NCBI GenBank assembly: GCA_949358305.1
Contig: OX442324.1
Location: 8,467,601-8,531,600, forward strand
Length of the DNA stretch: 64,000 bases
From: Strigamia acuminata
Lineage: Eukaryota > Arthropoda > Chilopoda > Geophilomorpha > Linotaeniidae
Reading direction: 5' to 3'
Shown here piece after piece: positions 8,671-56,755 of this stretch. Within the stretch, counting starts at the first letter, position 1, and each line of letters begins with the position of its first letter. The notes under the pieces are model-generated. The model did not search any database. It had not been told where the DNA came from and was given only the letters and a program-made list of their open reading frames with translations. A program made the position numbers and the translations under genes.

Positions 8671-9741
8671 CTAACAGTTTCCGAAGGTTTGGCGAAAGCC
8701 TTGGGCGACGAGTCGAGCACGATATCGAGTAATCTTGCCGGTCGCGTCTGATTTGAGTTTAAAGATCCATTTACAGCCCAAGATAGTCGTATTGGGCGGT
8801 TTCGGCACTTCGACATAAATCTCCCGCTCTTTAAAAGTTCCTAACTCTTCACCGATGGCTTCACGCCACTTTGGTGCGTCGTCGAATTTGGGAATTTCCG
8901 CATACGATGACGGTTCGGTGCGACAGAGATGAGCGGCATGTCGAGTTGGAGGAATCAACGGTAGCGTATGCTCTATGTTGCCGAAAAAGAATAACTCGGG
9001 GTCGTAAGGGAGATTGTTCATAACGCAGAATTCTTCGACATCTATGCGAGATCGGAGTCGAAGGCCGGGTTCCGGGAAATAGTAGACATCAATGTCTATC
9101 GAACCTGGCTGCTGGTCTTTTCGCAGGTGTTCTTCGCAAACCCATCTGCGAAACACTGTGTTCCCGCCGATATAACGCCAATAGAATGATGTCTTGCCGG
9201 CGGAAGGGGCTGCAACATGTGTTGCGCCAGGAGGCAATGGAGACATTTGCCCCTGATCGAAGATTGGCATTGTGTGCTGCAAAATATTTGGACCAGCTTT
9301 CTTTCGTAACGTGATAAAACGATTCGGTGATATCGGTGGTGAAAAACCGGGAGAACTGGCATTGGACGTTTCCGGTGACACATGGGCAGACTGATTCAGT
9401 TGCAATTCTTCCGCGTCCGGTTGAACCGCAAATTCCTCGATCTGTTCAACGTCATCGTCGGTGTCGTCCCCAATTGGTCCTGCAGCGGCCTCTTGATTTT
9501 CCTCATAAGTGATCGGTTGTGATATGGAACGACGAGCTGGTGTTGGCAATGTTGATGCACAAAGTTCTAACAATTGTCGTTCCGGTGTTGATGGCGGTGG
9601 AATATGAACGATCGGTATCGATGGCGTCTTTGATTTGGATGCCGACTTAGATACTGATTTTTCCTCGGATATTGAAAGTTCATCATCTGACGCTGGCTTG
9701 ATCGACCAGTCTGCATATTGGACAGTGTCGTTGAATGACAC
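8671..9741 (-). pseudogene. Copia-A linker, MBD-like segment and RT start
   Basis: About 356 residues. A Ser/Pro-rich linker is followed by an MBD-like segment (residues about 200-255), then the start of RVT_2 (WREAIGEELGTF, LGCKWIFKLK, RARLVAQGF). RT ends abruptly in a deletion. Integrase, expected just before the linker, is absent: the preceding piece runs from the protease region straight into the linker. Confidence 0.7.
8983..9150 (-). other. MBD-like segment in Copia-A
   Basis: Shows W (residue 200), an R in the first loop, DVYYFPEPG, LRLRSR and DPELFFFG, following the MBD order W...R...DVYY..P.G...RS...(D)FDF. The first loop is about two residues longer than in MeCP2. The second arginine (R133 of MeCP2) and the Ser after it are kept. 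This is a weaker match than Copia-B or -E. Confidence 0.5.
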
Positions 9742-10535
9742 TCTTTGTTGTTCATTGTTGGGATCAGAAAAGAATTCATTGTTGCCATTTGGTACATTTC
9801 GTAGAGATTTGCGATACGTGGTGATGTAGAAGGATTACTGCGAGGAGGAGGCGAGGCAGGGGGTATGGCAGGAGGTGTGTTAGGCAAGAGCGTTGTCGGG
9901 ATGTACTGGAGAACGTCGGAATAGGACTGGATGGGAGGATCAGGTTGGACGTTTGTGGATTTGGGGGTAGCTTGAGACTGGATAGGATTGACGATTTGAT
10001 TCGGAATTTGCTTCGGAATTGATGGCATTTCTATACGAAAATCCGTAATGTCTCCTTGTTTCGATTTCCCCTTTTTCAGTTTCGGAATGTTCTCGAAATC
10101 CACTTCTGTGGTGACATAAGTCAGTGCTGGCGTTTGCTCATTGGGTGTCGGAGCCGTCGTCGACATTGGAATCGTAATCGCCGCAGACACGGAAGGGGTC
10201 GAACACAAACCGTCCACATAATACAACCCAGCTTTCTCCTTTGCTCGAAGAATAGAGCTTCGAATGTCCGTTTGATAAATGTTGACCTCACCATTGTAAA
10301 AGTGTATGTGATGACGTGTTTTATCAATTTTAGAAACCGAAATCAAATTTGCTTCGAAGTTCGGTGCAAAAAGTACATTCGTCAAATTCACGATACAATT
10401 GCAGTCATCTATCCTTGTGAGAAGTCGGACTTGCCTTGTCCGAGTTCGATGTCGAAAGGCACGATGTCCACAAAATCCGTAAACCAAACCCGAACATATG
10501 AAATGTGGTCCGTCGCGCCACAGTCGACAATCCAT
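9567..10535 (-). pseudogene. Copia-A protease end and low-complexity linker
   Basis: The frame carries the end of the protease/pre-integrase region (VLFAPNFEANLISVSKIDK, GLYYVDGL) and then a Thr/Pro/Gln-rich linker. The zinc-binding HHCC and the D,D,E core of integrase are missing, so this copy could not integrate by itself. Confidence 0.65.
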
Positions 10536-11020
10536 TCGTTGGATTGCATAAAATGAGCAACTGGGCGCGCTGGGGCTTGTGGGGCACTGGCGAAGAATGT
10601 CCCTTCTCGTGTCGGACGAGAACAGCCTCGCGGACGCGTATCATCTGGTTTTGACGCGGAATATTTGTTGCGCTTCTTGCTCTTGCTTCGAGAGCGTTGG
10701 AAAGAAGCTGATGCCTGATTACTCTTGTCGCGTGGGGGATATGGGCATTTGTTGGCATAATGCCCCATCTCATTGCAGTTGAAACATTTAATTTCCGATA
10801 AGGGTCGACGAGGCCGAGAACTCTTCCGGGATTGTTGTTGGCCTTTTGCAGACGTATGCACAGAAGACGAGTGTACATTATGCAATCCCATCGGCTTTAA
10901 TCGCAGATATTCGGAAATCAACTGTTCAGCAACTTTAGTCGGTGTGAAATCCTGGTCAGGCCAGTGATATATGGCAAACGTTGCTTGTGCATATTCAGGC
11001 GGGAGTCGGGTGAGGTATTG
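10409..11020 (-). pseudogene. Copia-A gag C-terminus and protease start
   Basis: Shows the end of the UBN2-type gag (YLTRLPPEYAQATFAIYHW), a CCHC zinc knuckle (CFNCNEMGHYANKC) and the aspartic protease motif in altered form (VDCGATDH instead of DSGATDH). The 5' half of gag lies at 17562-18014 beyond Copia-B. The two halves are one base out of frame at the junction. Confidence 0.8.
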
Positions 11021-11025
11021 ATATG

Positions 11026-11324
11026 TGTGGAAAAGTTGAAAATAAGAGGCAAAATGATAAAAAGCATCGGGAGCTTTATTCGCATCCATTGTGGTGAAAA
11101 CAGGAAAACGCAAGTAATAACAAAGGCAATGATAAAAAGAGATACATAATCGGGCAGAACTAAAACCCGATAAACGAAATCTAAACAAAGCAAAATATAG
11201 GATCTCATAGGATCCAATCAATAAACGATGTCTACAAATTAAGTAACTGATAAATATCGAACATTAGAGTAAACATCGAGTATAAGCAACTATAAATAAA
11301 TCTCGGGGAACAAAAAGGCCAACA
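11026..11324 (-). repeat. Copia-B 3' LTR
   Basis: Minus strand TGTTGGCC to TTTTCCACA, 299 bp, apparently identical to 17258-17556. The tract GAATGGGGGGCTAT on the minus strand (11325-11338) is the polypurine tract. Confidence 0.9.
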
Positions 11325-11500: not shown

Positions 11501-14500
11501 TTACCGGAAGAAATGTTTGCATAAAAATTGCAAACGGGCAGGCGAGAAAAACTTAGTGAAAATGTCGGCAGGATTTAAATCGCCGGAAATCTTTCGCAAA
11601 ACAAAAACGCCCTCGGTAAGCCAATCCCGCAAAAAGAAATAGCGCACATCGATATGTTTGGTCCGACGATTTTCGATGTCATTCCTCGTAAAATAAATCG
11701 TAGACAACGAATCAGAAAACATCGTCGGAGTGGGCAAACGAAAAATTCGGGTCCGATCGATCGCGCCGTGGAGCCAAACGATCTCCTTCGCGCCATCGAG
11801 AAGTGCCAAAAACTCGGCCTCCATGATGCTTAAAGCACAATAGCGCTGCTTACAGCAGCCCCAGGAGATGGGAACCCCGAAAATCGAAATCGTAAATCCT
11901 CCAAAGCTCTTTCTTGTATCTCGGTCCGAGATCCAAGAGGCGTCGGAGTGCCCTGACAGGATGTCTCCAGTGACCGCGGAAAGGGAAATCGAATAATTCC
12001 GCGTGTTCTTCAAATACTGGAGAACCTGAAGAAGAAGGGCCACGTGCTTTGAGGTGAAGCACGTGTTGTACTGGGACAACAAGATCACCGGAAAGAGGAT
12101 ATCGGGGCGCGTGCGAGAAGCCAAAAACAGAAGCGACCCAATGAGAGAACGGTAAGGGAACTCGTCGTCGTTCAGCACACGTTCTCCCTCTCTAGCGCAA
12201 TTAATCATTGTGCCAACGGTGATCGGGACCCTGCACAGACGCTCGGAGGAAATTCCAAAATCTTCCGCGATCCGATCAATATAATCGCGTTGATGAATGG
12301 AAATATGTCCACCATCGCGATCAAACTGGACGCCTAACAGCTTCGATACCGGACCAAGATCTGTTATCGTGAAAAATCCACGAAGGGCCTTAACAGTTCA
12401 GTCTCGAGGACCGGGTCCTTTGGTGAATAACACCATGTCATCGACATAAACCAGGATGACGGCATCGTAAGTGTCGGAAATGAAAACGCCATTTACACCT
12501 AGAAGCTTGTGGAAATTAATCTCCAACAAGACTTCGACGAGACGAAAATTCCATTGTCGCCCGCTCTGATGAAGGCCGTAAAGAGCCTTATGAAGCCGCC
12601 ACACTTTTCCAGTGTTTTGAGGAGTTTCCCAGCCCCTGGGAATCCTCATGAAGATGGCTTCATCCAAGTTGCCATAAAGATAGGCACCCTTGACATCAAG
12701 GTGTGTGTCTAGCCAGCCAAGAACAACCACTAGAAGCACGAAAAATAGGCGAATCAAGACGTAATTGACCACGGGACTGAAAACCTCGGAATAGTCAACT
12801 CCGTACTTCTGGCTGAAACCCTGAGCCACTAACATCGCCCTAAAACGGCGCACAATGCTTTCTGCATCACGCTTGATGTAGTAGACCCATTTATTCCCCA
12901 CAATGTTTACATCAGGAGGAGGTTTTTCAACTTCCTCGTAAACACCTCGCTCACGAAAGAGATCAAGCTCTTCCTCCATGGCTTTCTGCCAATGGACACG
13001 GTCGGGGCTAGAAATAGCTTCCTTGTAGGTGCGAGAAACCTGGGCAAACAAGGAATGCGCGTACCGTGGTGGTTCGGTAGAATAGCAATCCGCAAACGCT
13101 TCTTCTTCCGAAGTCGTAGGACTGCGAGGAAGAGAAACATTAGGATCTACCGGTGGGGGATCAACCATTTGAACTGGCACATTTCGGGTGCTAAAGTCAA
13201 AGGAATCTCGATCGTATGCTAAACGATTGTCGACGCAATATCGCTCTACGTCGCCATGACTCCGCAATCTGGTACGATCCGGTGGGAAAAAATACACATC
13301 AGTGTGACCCATAGACGCACCAGACTGTCGAATCACCTCAGAACGAGTCCACTTGCCCCCCACAGCCGGAGAACCAGGCGGAGGCTGACGCAGTGGCGAG
13401 TGAACAGGAGGTGGAGGTCCAGGAGGTGGAAGTCCAGGAGGTGGAGGAGGAGGAGCTTGGAGTGCAGGAGCACCACCTTGGGGAACGGGAGGCAATTGGT
13501 CGGAAATAAAATCCGGCTCAAGCTCCACCGATATCGCACCTTCATCAGTGATCTCGGTGCCCTCATAAAAACGAGGATGTCCCCACATGCATTCCTCATC
13601 GAAACGGACATGTTTCGACTCGAAAACCTCTCTGCGCTTAGGGCACCACACGCGATAACCCCGCGTGCGAAAAGCATAGCCAACCACGACGCCAGTCCAG
13701 GCTCGGGATTCGAATTTCGAACCACGGACTTGCTTCGGGATGTGCACGAAACACCTTGACCCAATCACCTTAAGGTGTTTGAGTGGAACAGTCTTGCCAT
13801 ACCACAGACAATAGGGGACAAGATTGTTCAGTGACTTATGTGGGAAGCGGTTCTTCAAATAAATCATAGTAACCGCGAGCTCAGCCCACAGCACTCGAGG
13901 CAAAGACGTCGACAAAAAGAAAGAACGCACGCCCTCAAGTAAGGTGCGGTTAAGGCGTTCCGCGACGCCATTCTGCTCTGGTGTATAGACATTCGTGCGC
14001 TGTGCTTTGATGCCGCGCTGGACTAGGAAATTTTTGAAATTTTTGGAACAAAATTCCATGCCATTATCAGTCCTGACTGCTTTAATGCAGCCAGCCCCCC
14101 ATAAAGTCTCCATCCGAGCATGGAATAGCTTAAAAACTTCGAAAACTTCCCCCTTCGTTTTCATGGGCACAACAAAGGAGTAACGGGAAAAGTCGTCTAC
14201 GATCGTCAGTAAATAACGAGCGCCACCGATGGATGTGGTATTCGAATGACCCCAAACATCCATATGAAGCAAATCTAAAGGCTTCTTGGAAGAAATACCT
14301 TCCTTAATGCTTGGAAATGAAGCACGGGTGGATTTGGCGCGGGCACACACAGCACATGCTGGCAATGCGGAAGTAGAAATTTCTATTCCGGAAGCATTCG
14401 GAGATTTCGCCAAGTGACGGATACCGTCGGCATTAAAATGCCCAAATCTCCGGTACCAAAGCTCCAAATCAGACAACTTTCCCTTCGGGGGTTTGGGAGA

Positions 14501-15931
14501 AGAGGTTGAAACAAGTTCCTCGGCAAAAGTAACATGCCGGACAGGTGACTGCAAAGTCGACGCAGAAAGAACCTGTTTGGGAACTGGGGCGGATGTAGCC
14601 GTAGGAGGCGTCGCAGATGTAAGATCCGCGGGCAAAACATTCCGAAGGGCATATAAATCACCCTTCAGTTTGGCCGTCAAAAGAAATTGTTTGGCTTTAT
14701 CATCAGGGTGATAAATGGACATAACACCATTCGCGGCTGCCAAATGCAGTCCGGCACGATCGATCTTCGATAGGCTCACCAAATTACGCGAGAAAGCAGG
14801 GGCATGCAAAACATTATGCATAGTCACGGGAAAATTAGATCCCCCAGCGCCGCCACGGCCAACTCGCAACACCACATCTCCAATACTATCCACTCGAGAA
14901 CGACCTTCACCTAAAATGATGAAATAATTGGAGACCGGCTTGTAATTGGTGAAACGATCACGCACTGGACACACATGGTCGGAAGAACCCGAATCGATGA
15001 GCCACTCATTCGACGAAGCTGAAGACACATTCGATTCCGATCGCGCGAAGAAATTGATCCCGGTCACCACATTCGAAGAAACAGTAGCCGTCTGCGAAGC
15101 ACCACCATCGCGTCCAAGCTTGCGGTTGCGCGAATTCGAGCGTCGACCACGATTGGCGGATGGAGCGGAAGAGGCAGCGCCTTGGACTCGGGGTTTGGGG
15201 CACTTGTTCGCGTAGTGTCCCATTTCTTTGCAATTGAAACACTGAATTTGCGATAACGGCCGAAAAGGCTTATTCGGCGTACCCGAAGTCGAACTAGTAG
15301 ACTGCAAACTAGTCGATGATCCCGAATCCGCATTCTTCATCTTTAAACGATTAAATTCCGAGAGAAGATGGTCGGTGACTGCCTTTAAGGTGAAATCCGC
15401 CTTGGACCAATGGTAGATCGTTTGCACGGTCGCCTCGTACGAATCCGGTAAAAAATCCAGAAGTTGATAGGCGACATCCGAATCCGAAAATTTGACATCC
15501 AATTCAATCAAAACCGTACGGGCTTTGGTAACCCGGCTAACGAAAACTGACATGTCTTCATTTGGGAGCAAACGCATCATTAGGAAATCTCGGCGGAGTT
15601 TGGCAATTCGGGCAAGAGAAGTCGGTTGAAATGTGGCTTTCAATGCCACCCAGGCGTCGCGAGCGGTGTCGGCAGCGAGAACGATGTCCTGATATTGTGG
15701 CTCAACAAATAAGCCAAGCAAGGCTTTTGCACGTTTGGAGCGGTCATCGTGCAGTTGTTTGCGAGTATCATCCCACGCATCGTTTTTCACAGGAGGTTTC
15801 TCGTCGATAAACTGGTCGACACCTTTCTCGAGCAACAAAAACTGGATGTTGCGAGACCAGGACTCGTAATTATCTGCATTGAGCCGTGCGATGGAGAAAT
15901 GATGCGTGGTTGCCTTGTCGGATTCAGCCAT
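11501..15931 (-). CDS. Copia-B Gag-Pol polyprotein with one premature stop
   Basis: A single frame of 1477 codons from ATG at 15931 to the stop at 11501, interrupted only by TGA at 12398-12400 (codon 1178), just after the RT active site. Gag: UBN2-type capsid, then CCHC knuckle (CFNCKEMGHYANKC, residue about 230). Protease: IDSGSSDH (about 308). Integrase: zinc-binding HHCC, then catalytic D (LLHMDVWG), D (VRTDNG) and E (NGVAERLN). An MBD-like segment lies at 859-914. RT: FSPVVN to YVDDM (about 1163). RNase H: HSDASW, MEAEFLA, DIFTKFF. The length is typical of Copia plus an extra linker domain. Expressed as one polyprotein, it would now end inside RT. Confidence 0.9.
12398..12400 (-). other. 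Premature TGA in Copia-B pol
   Basis: The reading frame is the same before and after (…GPGPRD, stop, TVKALRGFF…), so this is a point change rather than a frameshift. It removes the last fifth of pol, including all of RNase H. A sequencing error would look the same. Confidence 0.8.
13190..13357 (-). other. MBD-like domain in Copia-B Pol
   Basis: Residues 859-914 of the polyprotein align without gaps to the methyl-CpG-binding domain pattern as I know it from MeCP2. W861 matches W104, R868 matches R111, G871 and G875 match G114 and G118, D878 matches D121, Y880 matches Y123, P884 matches P127, R890-S891 match R133-S134 and Y898 matches Y141. The segment closes with SFDFS, the MBD FDF motif. R111 and R133 are the arginines that read methyl-CpG, with D121 and Y123 positioning them. 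It lies after integrase and a Pro-rich linker and before RT. Binding to methylated DNA is inference. Confidence 0.75.
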
Positions 15932-17257: not shown

Positions 17258-17556
17258 TGTGGAAAAGTTGAAAATAAGAGGCAAAATGATAAAAAGCATC
17301 GGGAGCTTTATTCGCATCCATTGTGGTGAAAACAGGAAAACGCAAGTAATAACAAAGGCAATGATAAAAAGAGATACATAATCGGGCAGAACTAAAACCC
17401 GATAAACGAAATCTAAACAAAGCAAAATATAGGATCTCATAGGATCCAATCAATAAACGATGTCTACAAATTAAGTAACTGATAAATATCGAACATTAGA
17501 GTAAACATCGAGTATAAGCAACTATAAATAAATCTCGGGGAACAAAAAGGCCAACA
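17258..17556 (-). repeat. Copia-B 5' LTR
   Basis: 299 bp, apparently identical to the 3' LTR, TGTTGG...CCACA on the minus strand. Confidence 0.9.
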
Positions 17557-17561
17557 ATATG

Positions 17562-18014
17562 CGTGATGCCTGTTGTAACTTCTTTAATGTCTGCTAGTTG
17601 ACGAACAAAATGATCTACTCGATTGATAAAATCCTGCATTTCCTCATTGGGTTCGAGATGTAAAGTCAAGAACTCCGACCGCATTGCTGCCCCACGTGCC
17701 CGCGAACTGGGCGCGTACGCTTTTGCCAGGACGTCCCATGCCTGTTTAGGAGTATCACAATTATCCAGAGCTGAACGCTTAGGTTCGCTGACGTGAATGT
17801 AGATATGTCCGAGAGCTTTGTCCTTCTTGATCATGTAACGTTCCTTTTCCTTTTCAGATAATGTTAACAGGTGGTCTGCCTCTTTCTCCTCCGTTACATG
17901 TCTCCAAAGGCCCTCGGATTTCAAAAGCATCCGCATCGCTCTCTGCCAGGGCTCGTAATTCCCGACAGAGAGGATGGGAATCCTGCTAATCGTCGCTTCC
18001 GTTGTCTTATGCAT
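17562..18014 (-). pseudogene. Copia-A gag N-terminus
   Basis: Starts at ATG 18014 (MHKTTEATIS) and encodes the first 150 residues of a UBN2/DUF4219-type Copia capsid (VGNYEPWQRAMRMLLKSEG, AWDVLAKAYAP, FLTLHLEPNEEM). It stops at the Copia-B insertion and continues at 11020. The Copia-A leader before it (18015-18093, then 27025-27438) is split by Copia-D. Confidence 0.8.
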
Positions 18015-18093
18015 CGTTGTGAAAACTTGGCGCACCGCACAAAACACACGGACTCAGGAAAATGGTATAACGGCGTTCGAAGCACTTCACTAA

Positions 18094-19986: not shown

Positions 19987-21537
19987 TTAATTCGCTTCTA
20001 AGTCAATGTTAATGTCATCTGCAGTAACGTTGGATTCAGAAGGCGTCTTTTTTCTTTTGTTTTCAAAGAGGTGTTCCGGAATGCGAAGATTGTGATCCAC
20101 ACAATAGCGTTTCACTTCCGGAATTGAACGCAATCTTGGTTTATCATATCCTTCGATTGTGTATTCAATGTCTTTTTGACCTGTTGGTCTTGTCTTCTCG
20201 GTCTTTTTCCATACGAGAGCTGGTATGGTCGGAATTGGGTTTGGAAATGCTTGTCCAGGTTGTTGCAAAACGTTTGGTTGCTTCGCTGCTGGCAAGTTGT
20301 GCAATTTATCTTCCGGCTGTCTGAACTTTAACTTAACCGGAGGTAATTCTTCTCCCTTTTTCCTTTTGATAGGCTGTGGCGGGGGTAGCGGTGGCCTCAC
20401 GTCCTCGTCGGAGTAGTATTGACGGTCGTTGTCATAGTCCAAATTATCATTGAGATTATCTATGTACGTCGTGTATCTCTCCGGTAGACCCAGCACGCCT
20501 TCAACTCCGCGCCTGCTCTCAACGAATTTGACATCGCTGGTCTCAATAACTTTTGAAAATTCAGGTAACCAGACTCTGTATCCTTTTGTGATTCTGGAAT
20601 ATCCTAACATGATCCCATGCAGTCCTTTGTTGTCTATTTTTCCATCACGTACTCTCTTCTGCACGAAACAGAGACTTCCAAATTTCCGTAAATGTCGAAG
20701 TGATGGTTTGCGACCATAATATAACTCCATTGGTGTTTTATCTGAGTTTAACTTCGCAATCCTATTCCTAAGATAGTTGAAAGTTAAAATTGCCTCGCCC
20801 CAAAAACGGTGTTCCAGTTGTGCGTCGTAAATGAGAGCTCGCATCCCATTTGCTAATGTCTGGTTCAATCTTTCAGATACGCCGTTTTGGGCGGGTGTGT
20901 ACGCATTTGTCCTTTCGTGTGCGATTCCTTGTTGATCAAGATATTCTCCAAACTTGTTGGAACAAAACTCCATCCCATTGTCCGTGCGGATGGCCAAGAT
21001 TGACTTTCCGAGTAGTCTTTCAATCCGTTTTGCGTGTTTTTGAAAAATGTGGAACACTTTGTCCTTTTGTTTCATTAGGTAAACCGTGGAGTAACGGGAA
21101 AAATCATCCGTAATGGTAAGAAAATACCTATTTCCCGAAAGTGTTGCTGTGTTAAAGGCTCCACATACATCCATGTGCAAGAGCTCCAATGGTTGCTTCG
21201 ACCTAATTCCAGGCAATGATTTATGAGAGATTGACTTTTTCTTCGCCAACGTGCAAACATCACATTGTGTGATTGGCACGTTCAAAATCGGTAGTCCAAC
21301 TACTGCATCCCGCTTGCTCATTTCTTGCACGCTTGGGAAGTGGATATGTCCAAGTCTCTCATGCCATAATCTCGCTTCTTCTGGATTGGATGCCTTCTTA
21401 GTTGAGCTAGTTGATTCTTGTGTTTGTTGTTCTCCAGTACTCGCCTTGTTGCTTTCTTTTAATTTCAATTTTTCAATGTCGAGTTTCAAATCACTTGTTT
21501 TGATATAATAAAGTCTGTCTCTTTTAACTGCTTCCAT
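19987..21537 (-). CDS. Copia-D integrase and MBD-like linker (one open frame)
   Basis: 516 residues without a stop. The zinc-binding region (LWHERLGHIHF, CDVCTLAK) is followed by catalytic D (LLHMDVCG), D (IRTDNGMEF) and E (NGVSERLN), the C-terminal GYRVW region, a Pro-rich linker, and a reduced MBD-like segment at residues about 443-490. It is out of frame with gag and RT in this copy. Confidence 0.85.
   Translation of the reverse strand: MEAVKRDRLYYIKTSDLKLDIEKLKLKESNKASTGEQQTQESTSSTKKASNPEEARLWHERLGHIHFPSVQEMSKRDAVVGLPILNVPITQCDVCTLAKKKSISHKSLPGIRSKQPLELLHMDVCGAFNTATLSGNRYFLTITDDFSRYSTVYLMKQKDKVFHIFQKHAKRIERLLGKSILAIRTDNGMEFCSNKFGEYLDQQGIAHERTNAYTPAQNGVSERLNQTLANGMRALIYDAQLEHRFWGEAILTFNYLRNRIAKLNSDKTPMELYYGRKPSLRHLRKFGSLCFVQKRVRDGKIDNKGLHGIMLGYSRITKGYRVWLPEFSKVIETSDVKFVESRRGVEGVLGLPERYTTYIDNLNDNLDYDNDRQYYSDEDVRPPLPPPQPIKRKKGEELPPVKLKFRQPEDKLHNLPAAKQPNVLQQPGQAFPNPIPTIPALVWKKTEKTRPTGQKDIEYTIEGYDKPRLRSIPEVKRYCVDHNLRIPEHLFENKRKKTPSESNVTADDINIDLEAN
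20065..20211 (-). other. Reduced MBD-like segment in Copia-D
   Basis: W443 to the ELF-like end (EHLFE). W, the first-loop R, D of KDIEY, PRLRS and KRYC follow the MBD order, but the first DNA-contact loop is about four residues shorter and the Tyr equivalent to Y123 is Glu. The position between integrase and RT is the same as in Copia-B. It could be a degenerate or redirected version. Confidence 0.45.
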
Positions 21538-41130: not shown

Positions 41131-41514
41131 CAGAAAGCTCCGGAGATCCCGGAACCCCCTCCTGTGATACAGGAAGTCCCACAACCTGTTCTGCAGCAGA
41201 AAGTGAAACCCGCATTGCCCACGACCCCAAAGCCTGCTTTTAGACCTGAATTAAGGCCAGTCGCCAAACAGGCAGCTCAGCAACCCCCACTTATACCCGT
41301 TGAGGGGAACCCTGTTCTTGGGGATAGGGATACAGGGGATGAGCCTGTTGAAGAAATTGGTGGGGCGAAGGGGGATGATGGGAATTACTTCAACGTCTAT
41401 CCTGACGATGATGGGGAACCTGAAATTCCTCCTGGGATTCAAACGCGACGTGGATCACGATCAAAGAAAAAGAAAGGGGACGTGAGGCTACACCCGGAAC
41501 TACTGCCGTTAAAT

Positions 41515-41685
41515 ATGGCGGAATGGGAACGCCACGCATCCGTCCGTAAAGACGGAGCGACGGCGGGACAAATAGATGTTGTTTACATCACGCCCTTAAA
41601 GGATAAGATAAGAAGTCGAGTTGACATCGCACGGTGGTGCGATGAAGAAGGGTACGCATATGATGCGACCTTATTTGACTTTAAG
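41515..41685 (+). other. MBD-like domain in Copia-E
   Basis: W121, R128 (R111 of MeCP2), G131, G135, D138 (D121), Y141 one place later than Y123, P144, R150-S151 (R133-S134), W158 at the Tyr141 place, ending TLFDFK. No gaps relative to MeCP2 from W to W158. The end DATLFDFK is very close to human MBD1 (DLTLFDFK). Located before RT as in Copia-B. Confidence 0.72.
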
Positions 41686-42102
41686 ACATTAGAGGGGGAC
41701 GGTGAACCGTTAGGGTTTGCAGGTTTCTGTGCCGTCGAGCCAGAAACCTACGAAGAAGCCATGTACCACATCAAGCGCCCTGATTGGATTAAAGCTATGA
41801 GGGAAGAAATTTATGTATTTGATGAAAGAACGGTTTACAAGGAAGTTGACAAAACAACTTTAGACGAGGGTACGACTCTCTTGGGATCGAAATGGATATA
41901 CAAAATGAAACGCGACCACACGGGTGTTATCCAACGCTATCGAGCCCGACTCGTCGCACAGGGCTTTAAGCAAAAGCCCGGAGTTGACTTTACGGAGGTG
42001 TTCTCCCCCGTCGTCAACTTTGTGCTAGTAATAGTGTTCTTTTGCACTTTGGTAATACTCAAGGGATGGCGAGAATTACACCTGGATATTAAGGCCGCGT
42101 AC

Positions 42103-42932
42103 CTTTACGGGGACCTCAAAACGGTACAGTACATGGAGATCCCCAAGGGATATCGTACCGCCCATAATCGGCATAAATGCTGGATGCTTTTAAAAGCACT
42201 TTATGGATTACACCAGTCCGGTCGTATGTGGTACCAGGTCCTCCACATACGACTACTTGAATTGGGCTTTCAGCCGTTGTTGGGTTTAAACTGTGTCTAT
42301 GCCCTAGACAACGACGCGATAGTCATCTTCTACGTGGACGATATCGTGCTGTTTTCCAAGGATGACTATGTGGAACAATGCGTTTTAAAGTGGTTACGGG
42401 AATCGTTTGAAGTAGTGAGTCTGGGAATCGTAACTTTACTTTTAGGAATCGAGTTTGATAGGTCCAGGGACATGATTAAAATCCACCAACGGAAATATAT
42501 TGAAAAGCTTTGTAAAGCTTTACGGGGACCTCGAAACGGTACAGTACATGGAGATCCCCAAGGGATATCGTACCGCCCATAATCGGCATAAATGCTGGAT
42601 GCTTTTAAAAGCACTTTATGGATTACACCAGTCCGGTCGTATGTGGTACCAGGTCCTCCACATACGACTACTTGAATTGGGCTTTCAGCCGTTGTTGGGT
42701 TTAAACTGTGTCTATGCCCTAGACAACGACGCGATAGTCATCTTCTACGTGGACGATATCGTGCTGTTTTCCAAGGATGACTATGTGGAACAATGCGTTT
42801 TAAAGTGGTTACGGGAATCGTTTGAAGTAGTGAGTCTGGGACCCGTAACTTTACTTTTAGGAATCGAGTTTGATAGGTCCAGGGACATGATTAAAATCCA
42901 CCAACGGAAATATATTGAAAAGCTTTGTAAAG
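42103..42932 (+). repeat. 415-bp tandem duplication inside RT
   Basis: 42103-42517 and 42518-42932 are near-identical; I see CTCAAAACGG versus CTCGAAACGG and GGGAATCGTA versus GGGACCCGTA. The junctions share GTAAAG and CTTTAC/CGTACG. The length, not a multiple of three, shifts the frame. Confidence 0.9.
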
Positions 42933-45091: not shown

Positions 45092-45333
45092 TACAGTCGT
45101 GTTCAAAAAAACTGGACCCTCACTCTGTGCTGGCAATTGAAATTGTGAGTAATTCCGTGTTTTGCCACTAGGTGAAACACCAGACATCAACAAGTGATAA
45201 TATAGCCTTGTTTACAGTGATCCTTTCATAAGTTAATTTAGTGGACAGTTTTAAAAAGGAAAATATAAGTTATTTTTATAGAAAAAGTGTATGGATATTT
45301 AATACTAAGAAATAAAAAATTAATTTGTTTAAT

Positions 45334-45771
45334 ATTTTCTAACAATAAAGAATATTTTCTAACAATAAAGAATATTTTCTAACAATAAAGAATATTTTCT
45401 AACAATAAAGAATATTTTCTAACAATAAAGAATATTTTCTAACAATAAAGAATATTTTCTAACAATAAAGAATATTTTCTAACAATAAAGAATATTTTCT
45501 AACAATAAAGAATATTTTCTAACAATAAAGAATATTTTCTAACAATAAAGAATATTTTCTAACAATAAAGAATATTTTCTAACAATAAAGAATATTTTCT
45601 AACAATAAAGAATATTTTCTAATAATAAAGAATATTTTCTAACAATAAAGAATATTTTCTAACAATAAAGAATATTTTCTAACAATAAAGAATATTTTCT
45701 AACAATAAAGAATATTTTCTAACAATAGAGAATATTTTCTAACAATAAAGAATATTTTCTAACAATAAAGA
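45334..45771. repeat. 20-bp satellite, left arm
   Basis: About 22 copies of AATATTTTCTAACAATAAAG. The mirrored array in the right arm (46808-46929) has only about six. Confidence 0.9.
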
Positions 45772-45854
45772 GAATTTACCACTAGCTTTGTCTAAAAATA
45801 GCCGCGAATGAGATTAGGGCTAACAAAACAACAATCGGTCTCCGACCAATCCTT

Positions 45855-46715
45855 TCACTATCTCATTTTTACTATCTTATTTTCACTATCTCATCTTCAC
45901 TATCTCATCTTCACTATCTCATCTTCACTATCTCATCTTCACTATCTCATCTTCACTATCTCATTTTCTTTATCTCATTTTCTCTATCTCATTTACACTC
46001 TCATTTTTACTATCTCATTTTCACTATCTCATTTTTACTATCTCATTTTCGCTATCTCATTTTCGCTATCTCATTTTCACGATCTCATCTTCACTAGTGA
46101 TAGTGATCTTACCTGACAGTGAAAATGAGATAGTGAAAATGAAATTGTGAAAATGAGATCGTGAAGATGAGATAGTGTAAATGAGATTGTAAAAATGAGA
46201 TAGTAAAAATAAGATAGTGTAAATGAGATAGAGAAAATGAGATAGCAAAGATGAGATAGTGAAGATGAGATGGTGAAGATGAGATGGTGAAGATGAGATG
46301 GTGAAGATGAGATGGTGAAGATGAGATGGTGAAGATGAGATGGTGAAGATGAGATAGTGAAGATGAGATAGTGAAGATGAGATAGTGAAGATGAGATAGT
46401 GAAGATGAGATAGTGAAGATGAGATAGTGAAGATGAGATAGTGAAGATGAGATAGCAAAGATGAGATGGTGAAGATGAGATGGTGAAGATGAGATGGTGA
46501 AGATGAGATGGTGAAGATGAGATGGTGAAGATGAGATGGTGAAGATGAGATGGTGAAGATGAGATGGTGAAGATGAGATAGTGAAGATGAGATAGTGAAG
46601 ATGAGATAGTGAAGATGAGATAGTGAAGATGAGATAGTGAAGATGAGATAGTGAAGATGAGATAGTGAAGATGAGATAGTGAAGATGAGATAGTGAAAAT
46701 AAGATAGTAAAAATG
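45855..46715. repeat. 16-bp satellite, inverted around the centre
   Basis: TCTCATCTTCACTATC units to about 46100, then the complement GATAGTGAAGATGAGA to 46715, with GATGGTGAAGATGAGA variants in two blocks. The right arm is about 2.5 times longer than the left. Confidence 0.9.
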
Positions 46716-47167
46716 AGATAGTGAAAGGATTGGTCGGAGACCGATTGTTGTTTTGTTAGCCCTAATCTCATTCGCGGCTATTTTTAGACAAAGCTAGTGG
46801 TAAATTCTCTTTATTGTTAGAAAATATTCTTTATTGTTAGAAAATATTCTTTATTGTTAGAAAATATTCTTTATTGTTAGAAAATATTCTTTATTGTTAG
46901 AAAATATTCTTTATTGTTAGAAAATATTAAACAAATTAATTTTTTATTTCTTAGTATTAAATATCCATACACTTTTTCTATAAAAATAACTTATATTTTC
47001 CTTTTTAAAACTGTCCACTAAATTAACTTATGAAAGGATCACTGTAAACAAGGCTATATTATCACTTGTTGATGTCTGGTGTTTCACCTAGTGGCAAAAC
47101 ACGGAATTACTCACAATTTCAATTGCCAGCACAGAGTGAGGGTCCAGTTTTTTTTAACACGACTGTA

Positions 47168-52618: not shown

Positions 52619-55600
52619 TCATCGTAACGATGAATCACATAGTCGCAAATTAATAAAATCCTTTGTGGTGATCAATTTCAAACCACCTGTTGCCTTGGTC
52701 ATAATATCTGCAGGCATCTCTTCTGTAGACATATAGTTGATATCATAAGTTCCGTCTTGAACATCCTCACGTAAAAATAACACTCTCCTGTGAAAGTGTT
52801 TTGTGCGCCCATGGTACTGGGGGTTCTTAGTGAGGGCGATGGCGGCTTGATTATCGGAAAAGATTTGAATCGGTCTTTGAATTAAATTGGTCATTTCAAG
52901 CTGTTCCAGCAATGATGTTATCCATTTCAGTTCTTTTGCTAACTCTACCATTGCTACAAATTCCGATTCACATGTTGATAAGGCAATTAGCTTTTGCTTC
53001 TTTGATTGCCAAGTGATGGTTGAATTTCCCAGCATGGTGATAAATCCTGCATAGCTCTTTGCATCAACCGAGGCACTGTTCCAAGATGCATCGGCATATC
53101 CTCGCAATAATCCAAATCCCTGAGAATAAATTAACGACAAATCAGCCGTTCCTTTTAAATAGTGAAGGATCTTCTTTGCTGCTGTCCAGTGAGCATCATG
53201 CGGATTCTGCAACCACTGCGATAGATAGGATACCGCATAGGCGATATCTGGTCGAGTAGCTTGAGCCAAGTAGGATAAGGAGCCTATTAATTCTCGATAG
53301 GGCTCGTTAGTTAATGGTAATCCGAGCGGATAATTAGGGTCCTCCAGCTTCTGGGATGGGTCCATGGGTGCTCTACTTGTCTTTGCATTCATCATGTTGA
53401 ATTTAAGCAAGACCTCAAATATATACTTGGATTGGTCCAACAAAAGTGCATATGGATGGGTCTGTCGCCTAATCCTGATGCCCAAAATCTCTGTGACTTC
53501 TCCAAGGTCGATCAGATTAACTTGCTTCATCACTTTCCCCATTATCTGATCGAGCATCCGTGTGGCGTTAGTTGCCGGCATCAAATCGTCAACATAAGTG
53601 CCCATTATTATAATGTCGGTACCATTTTTCCACAGATGAACGCATGGATCAACTACCAACTTCTTAAATCCCGCTTGTGCAAGTACCTTGTTCAGGGCTT
53701 CATGCCAAGCGCGGCCTGCCTGAGGTAAACCATAAACTGCTTTATTTAGGAGCCAAACGTCGTTTTCTCGCCCAGGTTGAATAAAACCTTGAGGTTGCTC
53801 CATGTAGACTACCTCCTTCAATTTTGCATGAAGGTATGCTGATTTGACATCGTAGTGCTTGACTATAAAGCCAAACATTGCAGCAATGGCTAAGATAATT
53901 CTGATGGTGGCCAATCGAGCCACAGGGGAAAAAGACTCTGAATAGTCAATGCCCTTGTGGACATTGTAGCCTTGAACAACTAGACGGGCTTTATATTTCT
54001 TCTTAAACTTGTATACCCAGCGAGAGCCAATTACTTTTGCATCCTGTGGTCTTGGAACCAAAGTCCAAGTATTTTGTTGGGTGTGGGAGGCTATTTCCTC
54101 TTCCATAGCCTTTACCCATTGGCTCGCCTGGTCAGATGCCACTGCCTCAGCAAATGTCTTTGGCTCATAAATCGGTACTTCAACCTGTGGGTTGGTGTTC
54201 ACCACATGTGCTCGCTGGTTCTGCCAACGTTGTGTGCGATGCTGTCGCCAATCAATTGCTTGATAAGGCTGGACCTGACGTCGTATCCTTGAAGGATATC
54301 TCCGTTCTGGACCCGGTGTTGGTCGGGTGGGTTGCCGAAAAACAACTGGGGGTTGGGAGCTTACATCTCCCTCAGGTATGTACACCATTTCTGGTTCACG
54401 ATCAGGTTTTACATTCTGTCCTGATAATAATTCCACTCCCAATCTGGACTCATTGAATTTAACATCTCGTGCCACAATGATATTATTGGTATCTGGGTCA
54501 TAAAACTTCCAGCCCGGCTTCAACAAGGGATAGTCCATGAAAATGACCGGTTTAGCACGAGAATCCAACTTATTCCTATGTTGCTTTGGAACCCATGCGT
54601 AAGCAATAGTGCCAAAAATCCTCATATTAGATATGTCTGGTTTTCTTCCAGTAAGTCTTTCATAGGGTGTCTCATCCGGAAATCTACGTGTTGGTGAGCG
54701 ATTTATTGCATAGGCAGCACATGCTGCAGCTTCAGCCCAAAACTTGTGTGGCAACCTGGAATCATTCAATAGTGTCCTTGTCTTGTCAAGGAGGGATCTA
54801 TTTGCCCTTTCAGAGACTCCATTTTGGGATGGACTATAGATGACGGTAGTTTGATGTTGAATTCCCCTTGTGTCCAAAATTGTCCTAAAGTGTTGATTTA
54901 AAAATTCAGTCCCGTTGTCTGAGCGGACCATCTTGACTTTGGCTTCAAACTTATTTTGATGTGTGTCTATAAATTGTTCAAAAACACGCGAAGTCTCAGC
55001 CTTTGAGACCAAAAAACGAGGAAACAAACACCTTGAATAGTCATCTACAATCATGAAGATATACTCTGATCTTCCAATTGAAGGGTGTGGCATGGGACCA
55101 CACAGGTCTACATGCAGCATCTGTAGCGGTCCACTTGCTCTAATTGATGGTGCAGGCAAAAACGGGCTTCTGGTGTGCTTTGCTGTCACACATTCCTCAC
55201 ACAATGTCCATTTGTGAACTTTATCAATTGTCATCCCTGTCACCATATTTTTCTTTACTAAATCCTTTAAGGCACGATTGTTTATGTGTGCCAACCTGCG
55301 GTGCCACAACTCTGATCCCGCCAATGGAGGTTGTGATTGGATAGCCATCACTACTGCTTTGTCTTCCATTGTGGGTGCATTGGGGCTTCTTGCTTGTAAT
55401 TTGAACAATCCCCGATGGGATGAAACTTGGAACACTTGTACATTGTCAATTGTAGAAACTGTACAGCCACGGGCAGTAAATGCGACTTTATAGCCCAAAT
55501 TAGTCATTCTGCTTATTGATAACAGGTTACCACTCAATTCAGGCACATAATAGGTGTCTTCCAACTTCAGTACTCTGGCTTGGTCACCAAACCAAATATT

Positions 55601-56755
55601 TAGCATAATTACACCAGTTCCTGATGCTTTGATCTCTCTGCCATCAGCCAATGAAACCATCTTGACAAATGAGTCATCCAATGTTGTAAATAAACTCCTG
55701 TCTCCACTCATATGTGAAGTTGCACCTGAATCCAGATACCATATGTAAGGGTCAAATTGTTCTTGGTCTATTAAAAGTTCGTTCTTCCTGTCCACTTGAT
55801 CAGGGTCACTGTCCGTTGCAACAAGAGCGAACTGTGGTGTTTGATCTTCCACATCTGTCACTCGCTTGGATGTGGACGGTCCAGATGATCCTCGTCCTCT
55901 GGGAACCCAAGGTCTTGACCGAGGAGGAAAACCACGATTGGCAGATGTGGATGGTTGAGTGTCTTGGTTCTGCTGGGGTGGGCGGCGACAATCCACTTGT
56001 CTATGGCCTGGGATCCCACAATTCCAACATTTGAGTTGGATTCGACCTCTGGCTGGTCTGCCACCTCTGCCCCGTTGATAGGAGGTTGCACCTCGTACCC
56101 AATTGGCACTCTCCAGCTTTGGAGTTGTCTGTTGTGGCTTTCTTGCTTCCTCAGCCAATAAGGCACGTTGCAAAACTTGAATTGTCATTGCTGCCACTCC
56201 CAGTACATCACAGCTACGTACAACATTAATATAATCAGCAGTTAATCCTTTCAAGATGTGTGAGCAAAGTTCTGGTTCTTCAGTCACTACTCCCAATGAT
56301 TGCAGTTCCTGAGCTACTGCTGTGGCACGCCCAATATATTCCAGAATTGTCTCTCTAGGTTTCATCTGAATTCTACCCAAGTCAGTCTTTAATTGAACTT
56401 TTAATTCTGCTAAGACACCTTGGTTCTGGACTTGCAATTTCTTCCATGCTTCTGATGCAGTAACAACATTCATAACATATTTCATTTGAGTAGCATCTAT
56501 TGTAGATAAAATTGTATTCAGCACTTCCACATCTTTAACCTGCCATACATCCAATCTGGTATTGAAGGTTTTCTCATCTTCAGTTGCCAATTTAATAGGC
56601 ATCACTGGTGATGCAGTTGGATCCCACTTGTGCTTGGATCTCAGTAGAATTGCCACTCTAAATTTCCATGCACCATAGTTTCTGCCATTCAACTTCTCAA
56701 CTGGAATTACAAATTGATCTGCCATCATTTCCTCAGAAATAGCACTTAAAATCAA
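52619..56755 (-). CDS. Copia-J Gag-Pol polyprotein
   Basis: 1378 residues, no stop. Capsid (UBN2 type, LNGRNYGAWKFRV), CCHC knuckle (CWNCGIPGHRQVDC, about 242-255), protease LDSGATSHM (about 341), integrase zinc site (LWHRRLAHINN, CEECVTAKH) and D (HVDLCGP), D (VRSDNGTEF), E (NGVSERANR), a basic linker (RRYPSRIRRQVQP) without an MBD, RT with RARLV-like KARLVVQGY, DVKSAYLHAKL, GLPQAGRAW and YVDDLMP (about 1052), RNase H with YADASWN, STCESEFVA, FSDNQAAI and the DIMTKA end. The start could be Met-11 (56725), which gives the usual MADQF start. All catalytic motifs are intact. Confidence 0.93.
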   Translation of the reverse strand: MILSAISEEMMADQFVIPVEKLNGRNYGAWKFRVAILLRSKHKWDPTASPVMPIKLATEDEKTFNTRLDVWQVKDVEVLNTILSTIDATQMKYVMNVVTASEAWKKLQVQNQGVLAELKVQLKTDLGRIQMKPRETILEYIGRATAVAQELQSLGVVTEEPELCSHILKGLTADYINVVRSCDVLGVAAMTIQVLQRALLAEEARKPQQTTPKLESANWVRGATSYQRGRGGRPARGRIQLKCWNCGIPGHRQVDCRRPPQQNQDTQPSTSANRGFPPRSRPWVPRGRGSSGPSTSKRVTDVEDQTPQFALVATDSDPDQVDRKNELLIDQEQFDPYIWYLDSGATSHMSGDRSLFTTLDDSFVKMVSLADGREIKASGTGVIMLNIWFGDQARVLKLEDTYYVPELSGNLLSISRMTNLGYKVAFTARGCTVSTIDNVQVFQVSSHRGLFKLQARSPNAPTMEDKAVVMAIQSQPPLAGSELWHRRLAHINNRALKDLVKKNMVTGMTIDKVHKWTLCEECVTAKHTRSPFLPAPSIRASGPLQMLHVDLCGPMPHPSIGRSEYIFMIVDDYSRCLFPRFLVSKAETSRVFEQFIDTHQNKFEAKVKMVRSDNGTEFLNQHFRTILDTRGIQHQTTVIYSPSQNGVSERANRSLLDKTRTLLNDSRLPHKFWAEAAACAAYAINRSPTRRFPDETPYERLTGRKPDISNMRIFGTIAYAWVPKQHRNKLDSRAKPVIFMDYPLLKPGWKFYDPDTNNIIVARDVKFNESRLGVELLSGQNVKPDREPEMVYIPEGDVSSQPPVVFRQPTRPTPGPERRYPSRIRRQVQPYQAIDWRQHRTQRWQNQRAHVVNTNPQVEVPIYEPKTFAEAVASDQASQWVKAMEEEIASHTQQNTWTLVPRPQDAKVIGSRWVYKFKKKYKARLVVQGYNVHKGIDYSESFSPVARLATIRIILAIAAMFGFIVKHYDVKSAYLHAKLKEVVYMEQPQGFIQPGRENDVWLLNKAVYGLPQAGRAWHEALNKVLAQAGFKKLVVDPCVHLWKNGTDIIIMGTYVDDLMPATNATRMLDQIMGKVMKQVNLIDLGEVTEILGIRIRRQTHPYALLLDQSKYIFEVLLKFNMMNAKTSRAPMDPSQKLEDPNYPLGLPLTNEPYRELIGSLSYLAQATRPDIAYAVSYLSQWLQNPHDAHWTAAKKILHYLKGTADLSLIYSQGFGLLRGYADASWNSASVDAKSYAGFITMLGNSTITWQSKKQKLIALSTCESEFVAMVELAKELKWITSLLEQLEMTNLIQRPIQIFSDNQAAIALTKNPQYHGRTKHFHRRVLFLREDVQDGTYDINYMSTEEMPADIMTKATGGLKLITTKDFINLRLCDSSLR

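Follow-up and report, generated by a model that had tools for sequence, protein, structure and literature searches.

The 64,000-nucleotide stretch of Strigamia acuminata DNA analyzed here (the window) belongs to contig C12, which is the X chromosome (C13 is the Y), and carries a Copia retrotransposon on its minus strand (Table 1). Pfam matches to gag, a zinc knuckle (residues 230–246), the integrase core, an SH3-like domain and RVT_2 (residues 998–1171) follow each other in Copia order, in agreement with the label given by an earlier note on this DNA; the arrangement Gag, integrase, RVT_2, the LTRs and the target-site duplication are those of a Copia LTR element. The whole insertion with both LTRs measures 6531 bp, and it is considered young because its 299-bp LTRs are identical and a 5-bp target duplication is preserved.

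A gag match in ORF 17496–18047(−) and a zinc knuckle in ORF 10409–11221(−) lie on opposite outer sides of the insertion, and their order and orientation suggest that the element was inserted into a gag belonging to a different Copia, possibly that with the MBD-like segment 8983–9144(−). Two LTR-like pairs (18129–18401/26748–27020 and 5250–5549/27690–27989; 98–99% alike) also flank the element in the region 4382–27989, which suggests Copia elements nested within each other.

Table 1. Coordinates of the Copia element under study and of other Copia features in the window.
Feature	Position	Strand	Basis or remarks
Copia gag-pol open frame, 1177 aa, stops inside RT	12398..15931	-	ORF; Pfam domains
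Gag (Retrotran_gag_2), residues 30-200	15332..15844	-	E 1.8e-21
Integrase core (rve), residues 550-651	13979..14284	-	E 5e-14
SH3-like domain, residues 711-783	13583..13801	-	E 2.2e-25
MBD domain, residues 857-918, between SH3 and RT	13178..13363	-	PF01429 E 5e-9; MBD2 6c1a E 1.5e-7
Reverse transcriptase (RT), interrupted	12239..12937	-	RVT_2 E 4.5e-43 to open-frame end; own RT model, stops as X
Extra open piece of same element, behind RT, 235 aa	11501..12208	-	RNase H part by position; without Pfam match
3' LTR of minus-strand element	11026..11324	-	299 bp, identical to other LTR, TG...CA
5' LTR	17258..17556	-	299 bp, identical to other LTR, TG...CA
Target-site duplication ATATG	11021..11025; second copy 17557-17561	.	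5 bp
MBD of second MBD-Copia (ORF 41164-42582), Val at Tyr position	41521..41682	+	Pfam E 3.2e-9; own model
MBD-like segment of third, decayed Copia	8983..9144	-	E 8.9e-11 with own MBD model; no Pfam match
Degenerate MBD-like segment of fourth Copia	20083..20184	-	weak match, E 3.6e-4 with own model
Copia without MBD, 1378 aa, comparison element	52619..56755	-	Pfam domains; own MBD model: no match

The earlier note had described a methyl-CpG-binding domain (MBD) at 13190–13357 of the minus strand, that is, residues 859–914 of ORF 12398–15931(−), and these coordinates agree with ours. The HMMER comparison with the Pfam family that it proposed as a check was significant: PF01429 matched with 36.1 bits against a curated cut-off of 21, the 56-residue segment by itself reached 38.2 bits (E 1.1e-9, hmmscan), and our own MBD model placed the domain at 13193–13354(−). 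Every residue listed in the note (W861, R868, G871, G875, D878, Y880, P884, R890, S891 and Y898) is present in the translation, as is the terminal FDF motif, at residues 911–913; the MeCP2 counterparts as numbered in the note are W104, R111, G114, G118, D121, Y123, P127, R133, S134 and Y141. The claim of a match free of gaps holds as far as Tyr898, beyond which three additional residues stand ahead of FDF in comparison with MBD2. The set that reads methyl-CpG (Arg-Asp-Tyr-Arg, comprising two Arg fingers, Asp and Tyr) is entire.

Among the sequences of solved structures MBD2 is the best match (6c1a), followed by MBD3 and MBD1, and chains of MeCP2 appear only from E 0.0043 on; MeCP2 was thus rejected as the closest kin, since MBD2 and MBD3 score better. 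Of the 189 candidates from a protein search with residues 840–990, none reached E 0.001. Judged by its sequence, the polyprotein holds a domain of the MBD1/2/3 type whose nearest solved relative is MBD2/3 rather than MeCP2. A chance match or artefact was rejected on the basis of the Pfam score, the MBD2 match and the genome search described below.

Our own RT model located Copia RT segments at five places of the window, one of them split in two pieces, and upstream of four of the five lies an MBD or a segment resembling one, degenerate in one case; in ORF 19987–21537 of the fourth Copia, Pfam gave no MBD match. The distance from SH3 to RT is 123 residues in the MBD-less ORF 52619–56755(−) versus 214 in the MBD element. 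The CpG observed/expected ratio (o/e) of that MBD-less frame is 0.49, despite its uninterrupted 1378 aa, against 1.07–1.21 in segments from the two clearer MBD elements. The RT of the second MBD-Copia was found as two pieces, at an identical 300-base direct repeat (42103–42402 and 42518–42817, 415 bases apart). Arrays of tandem repeats (units of 19, 20 and 14 bases) occur at about 1578–2700, 45211–45890 and 45812–46800.

The repertoire of MBD-bearing Copia elements was then surveyed in the complete assembly (237,517,015 bases, 157 contigs). A search with PF01429 gave 1092 candidate places, and the best 150, all scored, were above the cut-off (150/150), many of them in open frames of at least 1500 aa. 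The sets obtained with PF01429, the window segment, MBD2 and Integrase_H2C2 represent the best 150 of 1092, 1572, 869 and 4147 candidates, respectively, and one further set of 150 the best-scoring places of 2633 candidates. With the window MBD segment as query, 81 of the 150 rows were used (identity of at least 73%). Among these best 150 of 1572 there are at least 37 matches with 91% identity or more, which constitute the window family (six are partial, and two of the six, on C11, may be a single copy), and at least 44 matches with 73–78% identity, which constitute a sister family; 11 of the 37 lie in open frames of 1513–1523 aa. A fusion confined to the window copy was rejected in view of the many copies retrieved by both searches.

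An RT accompanies the MBD at each of the 39 loci that were read (they represent 37 distinct places, as L073 and L074 duplicate L003 and L004), and no MBD was found within 1.5 kb of the 30 best-scoring RVT_2 loci. These 39 and 30 loci, together with the window segments, provided 69 rows and 36 distinct sequences for an RT tree (excluding L002 and L006, below 60 bits; L007 and L076, shorter than 140 aa; window 8680–8814, of insufficient length; and the second piece, at 42518). The 23 MBD-bearing RTs occupy one side of a branch with support 100/99, present in 100% of 200 bootstrap trees. This grouping, which covers this genome alone and a sample of its best-scoring RVT_2 families, fits a single capture of the MBD among the Copia elements of S. 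acuminata without proving it, and several independent captures by Copia lineages of this genome are not supported. The capture does not look recent, because no other RT in the tree is more than 56% identical to the window RT; the finer placing is unsure owing to the long branches of window 19198, 12239 and 53363 and of L001. Among 24 distinct MBDs, 61 usable pairs of 276 gave a median dN/dS of 0.098, all below 1 (the stop codon of L002 was skipped). The MBD is under purifying selection (dN/dS about 0.1) and is a fixed part of one Copia clade, spread over several subfamilies.

The residues involved in methyl-CpG recognition vary among these subfamilies. The two Arg bind guanines and the Tyr confers methyl selectivity, and MBD3, with Phe at the Tyr position, has little methyl selectivity (PMC5240623, PMC9520026). 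Residues were counted in 23 of the 24 distinct 54-residue MBDs, many of which are near relatives (L002 was excluded for its stop, and the gapped domains of L006, window 8983, window 20083 and a host exon were also set aside). No variation was seen at Trp, at either Arg finger, at the two Gly or at Pro and Ser (23/23); Asp occurs in 21 and is replaced by Phe in the other two; the Tyr position is occupied by Val (11), Tyr (6), Ile (3), His (2) or Trp (1). The window family and its sister retain both Tyr and Asp. Two MBD-Copia copies, L085 (C1:64159250–64159560) and L088 (C12:464680–465000), lack Asp and Tyr and retain both Arg fingers.

A host MBD2/3 gene occurs at C5:5733000–5735000 (L095), with exons near C5:5734570 and C5:5734413(−). 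Its product reads ...GKIDVFYY + SPSGKKFRSK..., with the Phe of MBD3 where MBD2 has Tyr. The second exon is the only match above 49% identity to MBD2 among the best 150 of 869 candidates, and this gene is the sole host MBD2/3 found by a search that a second gene split by introns could escape. Since the window family keeps the full reading set, other families have Val, Ile, Trp or His at the Tyr position and the host protein has Phe, it may be speculated that MBD-Copia subfamilies of one genome diverged in reader specificity, that the element family provides the most methyl-selective MBD2/3-type reader of this genome, and that subfamilies split chromatin targets according to the residue at the Tyr position. 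This proposal is regarded as doubtful.

The location of the copies was examined in the chromosome-level assembly, reported to comprise 237.5 Mb in 158 scaffolds with an X of 9.63 Mb and a Y of 10.34 Mb (PMC10556566). The median distance to the chromosome end is 2.46 Mb for MBD-Copia (134/150 placed) versus 7.06 Mb for other Copia (147/150 placed; p 1e-15), and 38 of 134 versus 7 of 147 lie within 1 Mb of an end; these values are based on sets of the 150 best-scoring places each and on five chromosome lengths that were rounded. Among the matches listed, the median is 2.34 Mb for the window family (35/37 placed) and 1.56 Mb for the sister family (33/44 placed). The X, 4% of the genome, carries 9 of the 37 window-family matches listed (binomial p 1.3e-5).

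This crowding was rejected as proof of MBD targeting, as Gypsy-type elements (Integrase_H2C2, the best 150 of 4147) are concentrated there as well: their autosomal median is 3.34 Mb versus 2.67 Mb for MBD-Copia (p 0.28), and 28 of these 150 are on the Y. End crowding therefore needs no MBD, because elements of Gypsy type share both the ends and the Y. Two or more Gypsy-type matches within 250 kb are commoner around MBD-Copia places (26/134; window family 4/35, sister family 8/33) than around other Copia places (3/147) or random points (270/5000). End crowding is alike for the Tyr-type families and for the PF01429 set, in which 25 of the 30 loci read are of the Val or Ile type. CpG density in flanks 12 kb away from MBD-Copia is not significantly higher, at 62.5 per kb compared with 48.75 (20 flanks in each set, p 0.24). 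A chromodomain that would explain the crowding was not seen in the Gypsy frames, the 92 Chromo matches (PF00385) being in frames of at most 530 aa. Most of these are repeated open frames of about 321–330, 373 or 437–485 aa, 20 of the 92 are on the Y, and they resemble a mobile frame that carries a chromodomain and exists in many copies; no MBD-Copia match was found within 6 kb of the 64 of 92 Chromo places tried. Taken together, the location pattern fits heterochromatin targeting without proving it, and a similar picture would arise if copies survived in gene-poor ends.

The host has candidates for a methylation machinery: 11 DNA_methylase matches, DNMT1, 2 and 3 counted together, occur in five neighborhoods of the S. 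acuminata genome. Of 719 domain-bearing transposable elements (TEs) of the congener S. maritima, 75.8% belong to the highly methylated class (PMC7343188). The window has a CpG o/e of 1.01, MBD loci L007–L030 one of 0.96, the other Copia loci 1.21 and the methylase loci 1.43; because no strong CpG loss is apparent, these ratios are weak evidence on methylation either way.

Binding of methylated DNA for the targeting of integration is most likely among the readings considered. An ancestral Copia would have taken up an animal MBD1/2/3-type domain between integrase and reverse transcriptase and then kept it, and the window element would be a young member of the resulting clade. The MBD in Pol, adjoining the integrase, would be present in the integration complex and hold it on methylated CpG in silent, repeat-rich chromatin, thus choosing the target, and new copies would land in already silenced DNA with little harm to the host. 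We assign this explanation a probability of roughly 0.6. It is favored because the reading residues are complete, the MBD is under purifying selection, the host has DNA_methylase genes, TEs of S. maritima are methylated, MBD copies are nearer to the ends than other Copia and a published precedent exists; it is weakened by the ends and Y shared with Gypsy-type elements, by the flank CpG result and by the Val/Ile families that crowd the ends too.

The residue counts also suit another role, namely that the MBD serves as a module with general affinity for DNA or for CpG which in most subfamilies does not read methylation, any methyl selectivity being incidental: the Tyr position is non-Tyr in 17 of the 23 distinct MBDs while the Arg fingers do not vary, and the low selectivity of MBD3 with its Phe points the same way. 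The conservation of Tyr and Asp in the window family and its sister speaks against such a role, which we hold to be unlikely. Selection on the MBD is equally compatible with a different task, such as marking or shielding the chromatin of the element, or competing with host MBD readers to escape silencing. That targeting by the MBD does not follow from an end crowding shared with Gypsy-type elements agrees with this, as does a Tyr in the window family that the host MBD2/3 lacks; the position in Pol next to the integrase fits integration better, and such a task appears quite improbable. That the resemblance is fortuitous, or a decayed fragment devoid of function, could draw on the interruption inside RT of that one window copy alone, and is already refuted by significant Pfam and MBD2 scores, numerous copies, a single clade and purifying selection; practically no weight is left to it.

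The targeting reading reportedly has a published counterpart. The earlier note was right on the identity of the domain, as the Pfam and structure-sequence matches indicate, and its statement that no report of this architecture was known fails, because MBD-carrying arthropod retrotransposons were published in 2019 (de Mendoza, Pflueger and Lister 2019, Genome Res 29:1277-1286); a 2020 article cites that work for a relatively recent TE family of S. maritima (PMC7343188). For S. acuminata itself, no report of MBD-Copia was found in the literature searched, mostly by queries that did not name Strigamia. The authors of the 2019 study are said to have described Copia elements with an MBD in S. maritima and in the spider Stegodyphus, and reportedly observed binding to methylated DNA of high CpG density, as well as young copies in regions dense in CpG; the targeting idea, too, was reportedly theirs.

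The architecture is thus already known and the S. acuminata element is an addition to a published kind, extending a narrow case of methylation-reading retrotransposon to a second centipede, one assembled to chromosome level. As in the 2019 family, an MBD was captured by a retrotransposon and lies inside Pol in many copies, with a link to the congener S. maritima; the species differs, and the likeness is one of architecture. The natural variation of the methyl-reading Tyr within a single genome would permit a direct test of whether methyl reading sets the landing site. The MBD2/MBD3 proteins share the domain and are its nearest solved sequences, the window copy having the two Arg fingers, the Asp and the Tyr that MBD2 has, but they are host NuRD subunits outside any polyprotein and lack the three residues inserted ahead of FDF. 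Chromodomain-bearing Gypsy retrotransposons (chromoviruses), in which a chromatin reader in Pol directs integration, are alike in idea and differ in reading histone marks, in superfamily and in the position within Pol. Retrotransposons bearing a DNMT in dinoflagellates and charophytes (PMC5890265) likewise captured a part of the 5mC machinery, in their case a writer enzyme and not a reader.
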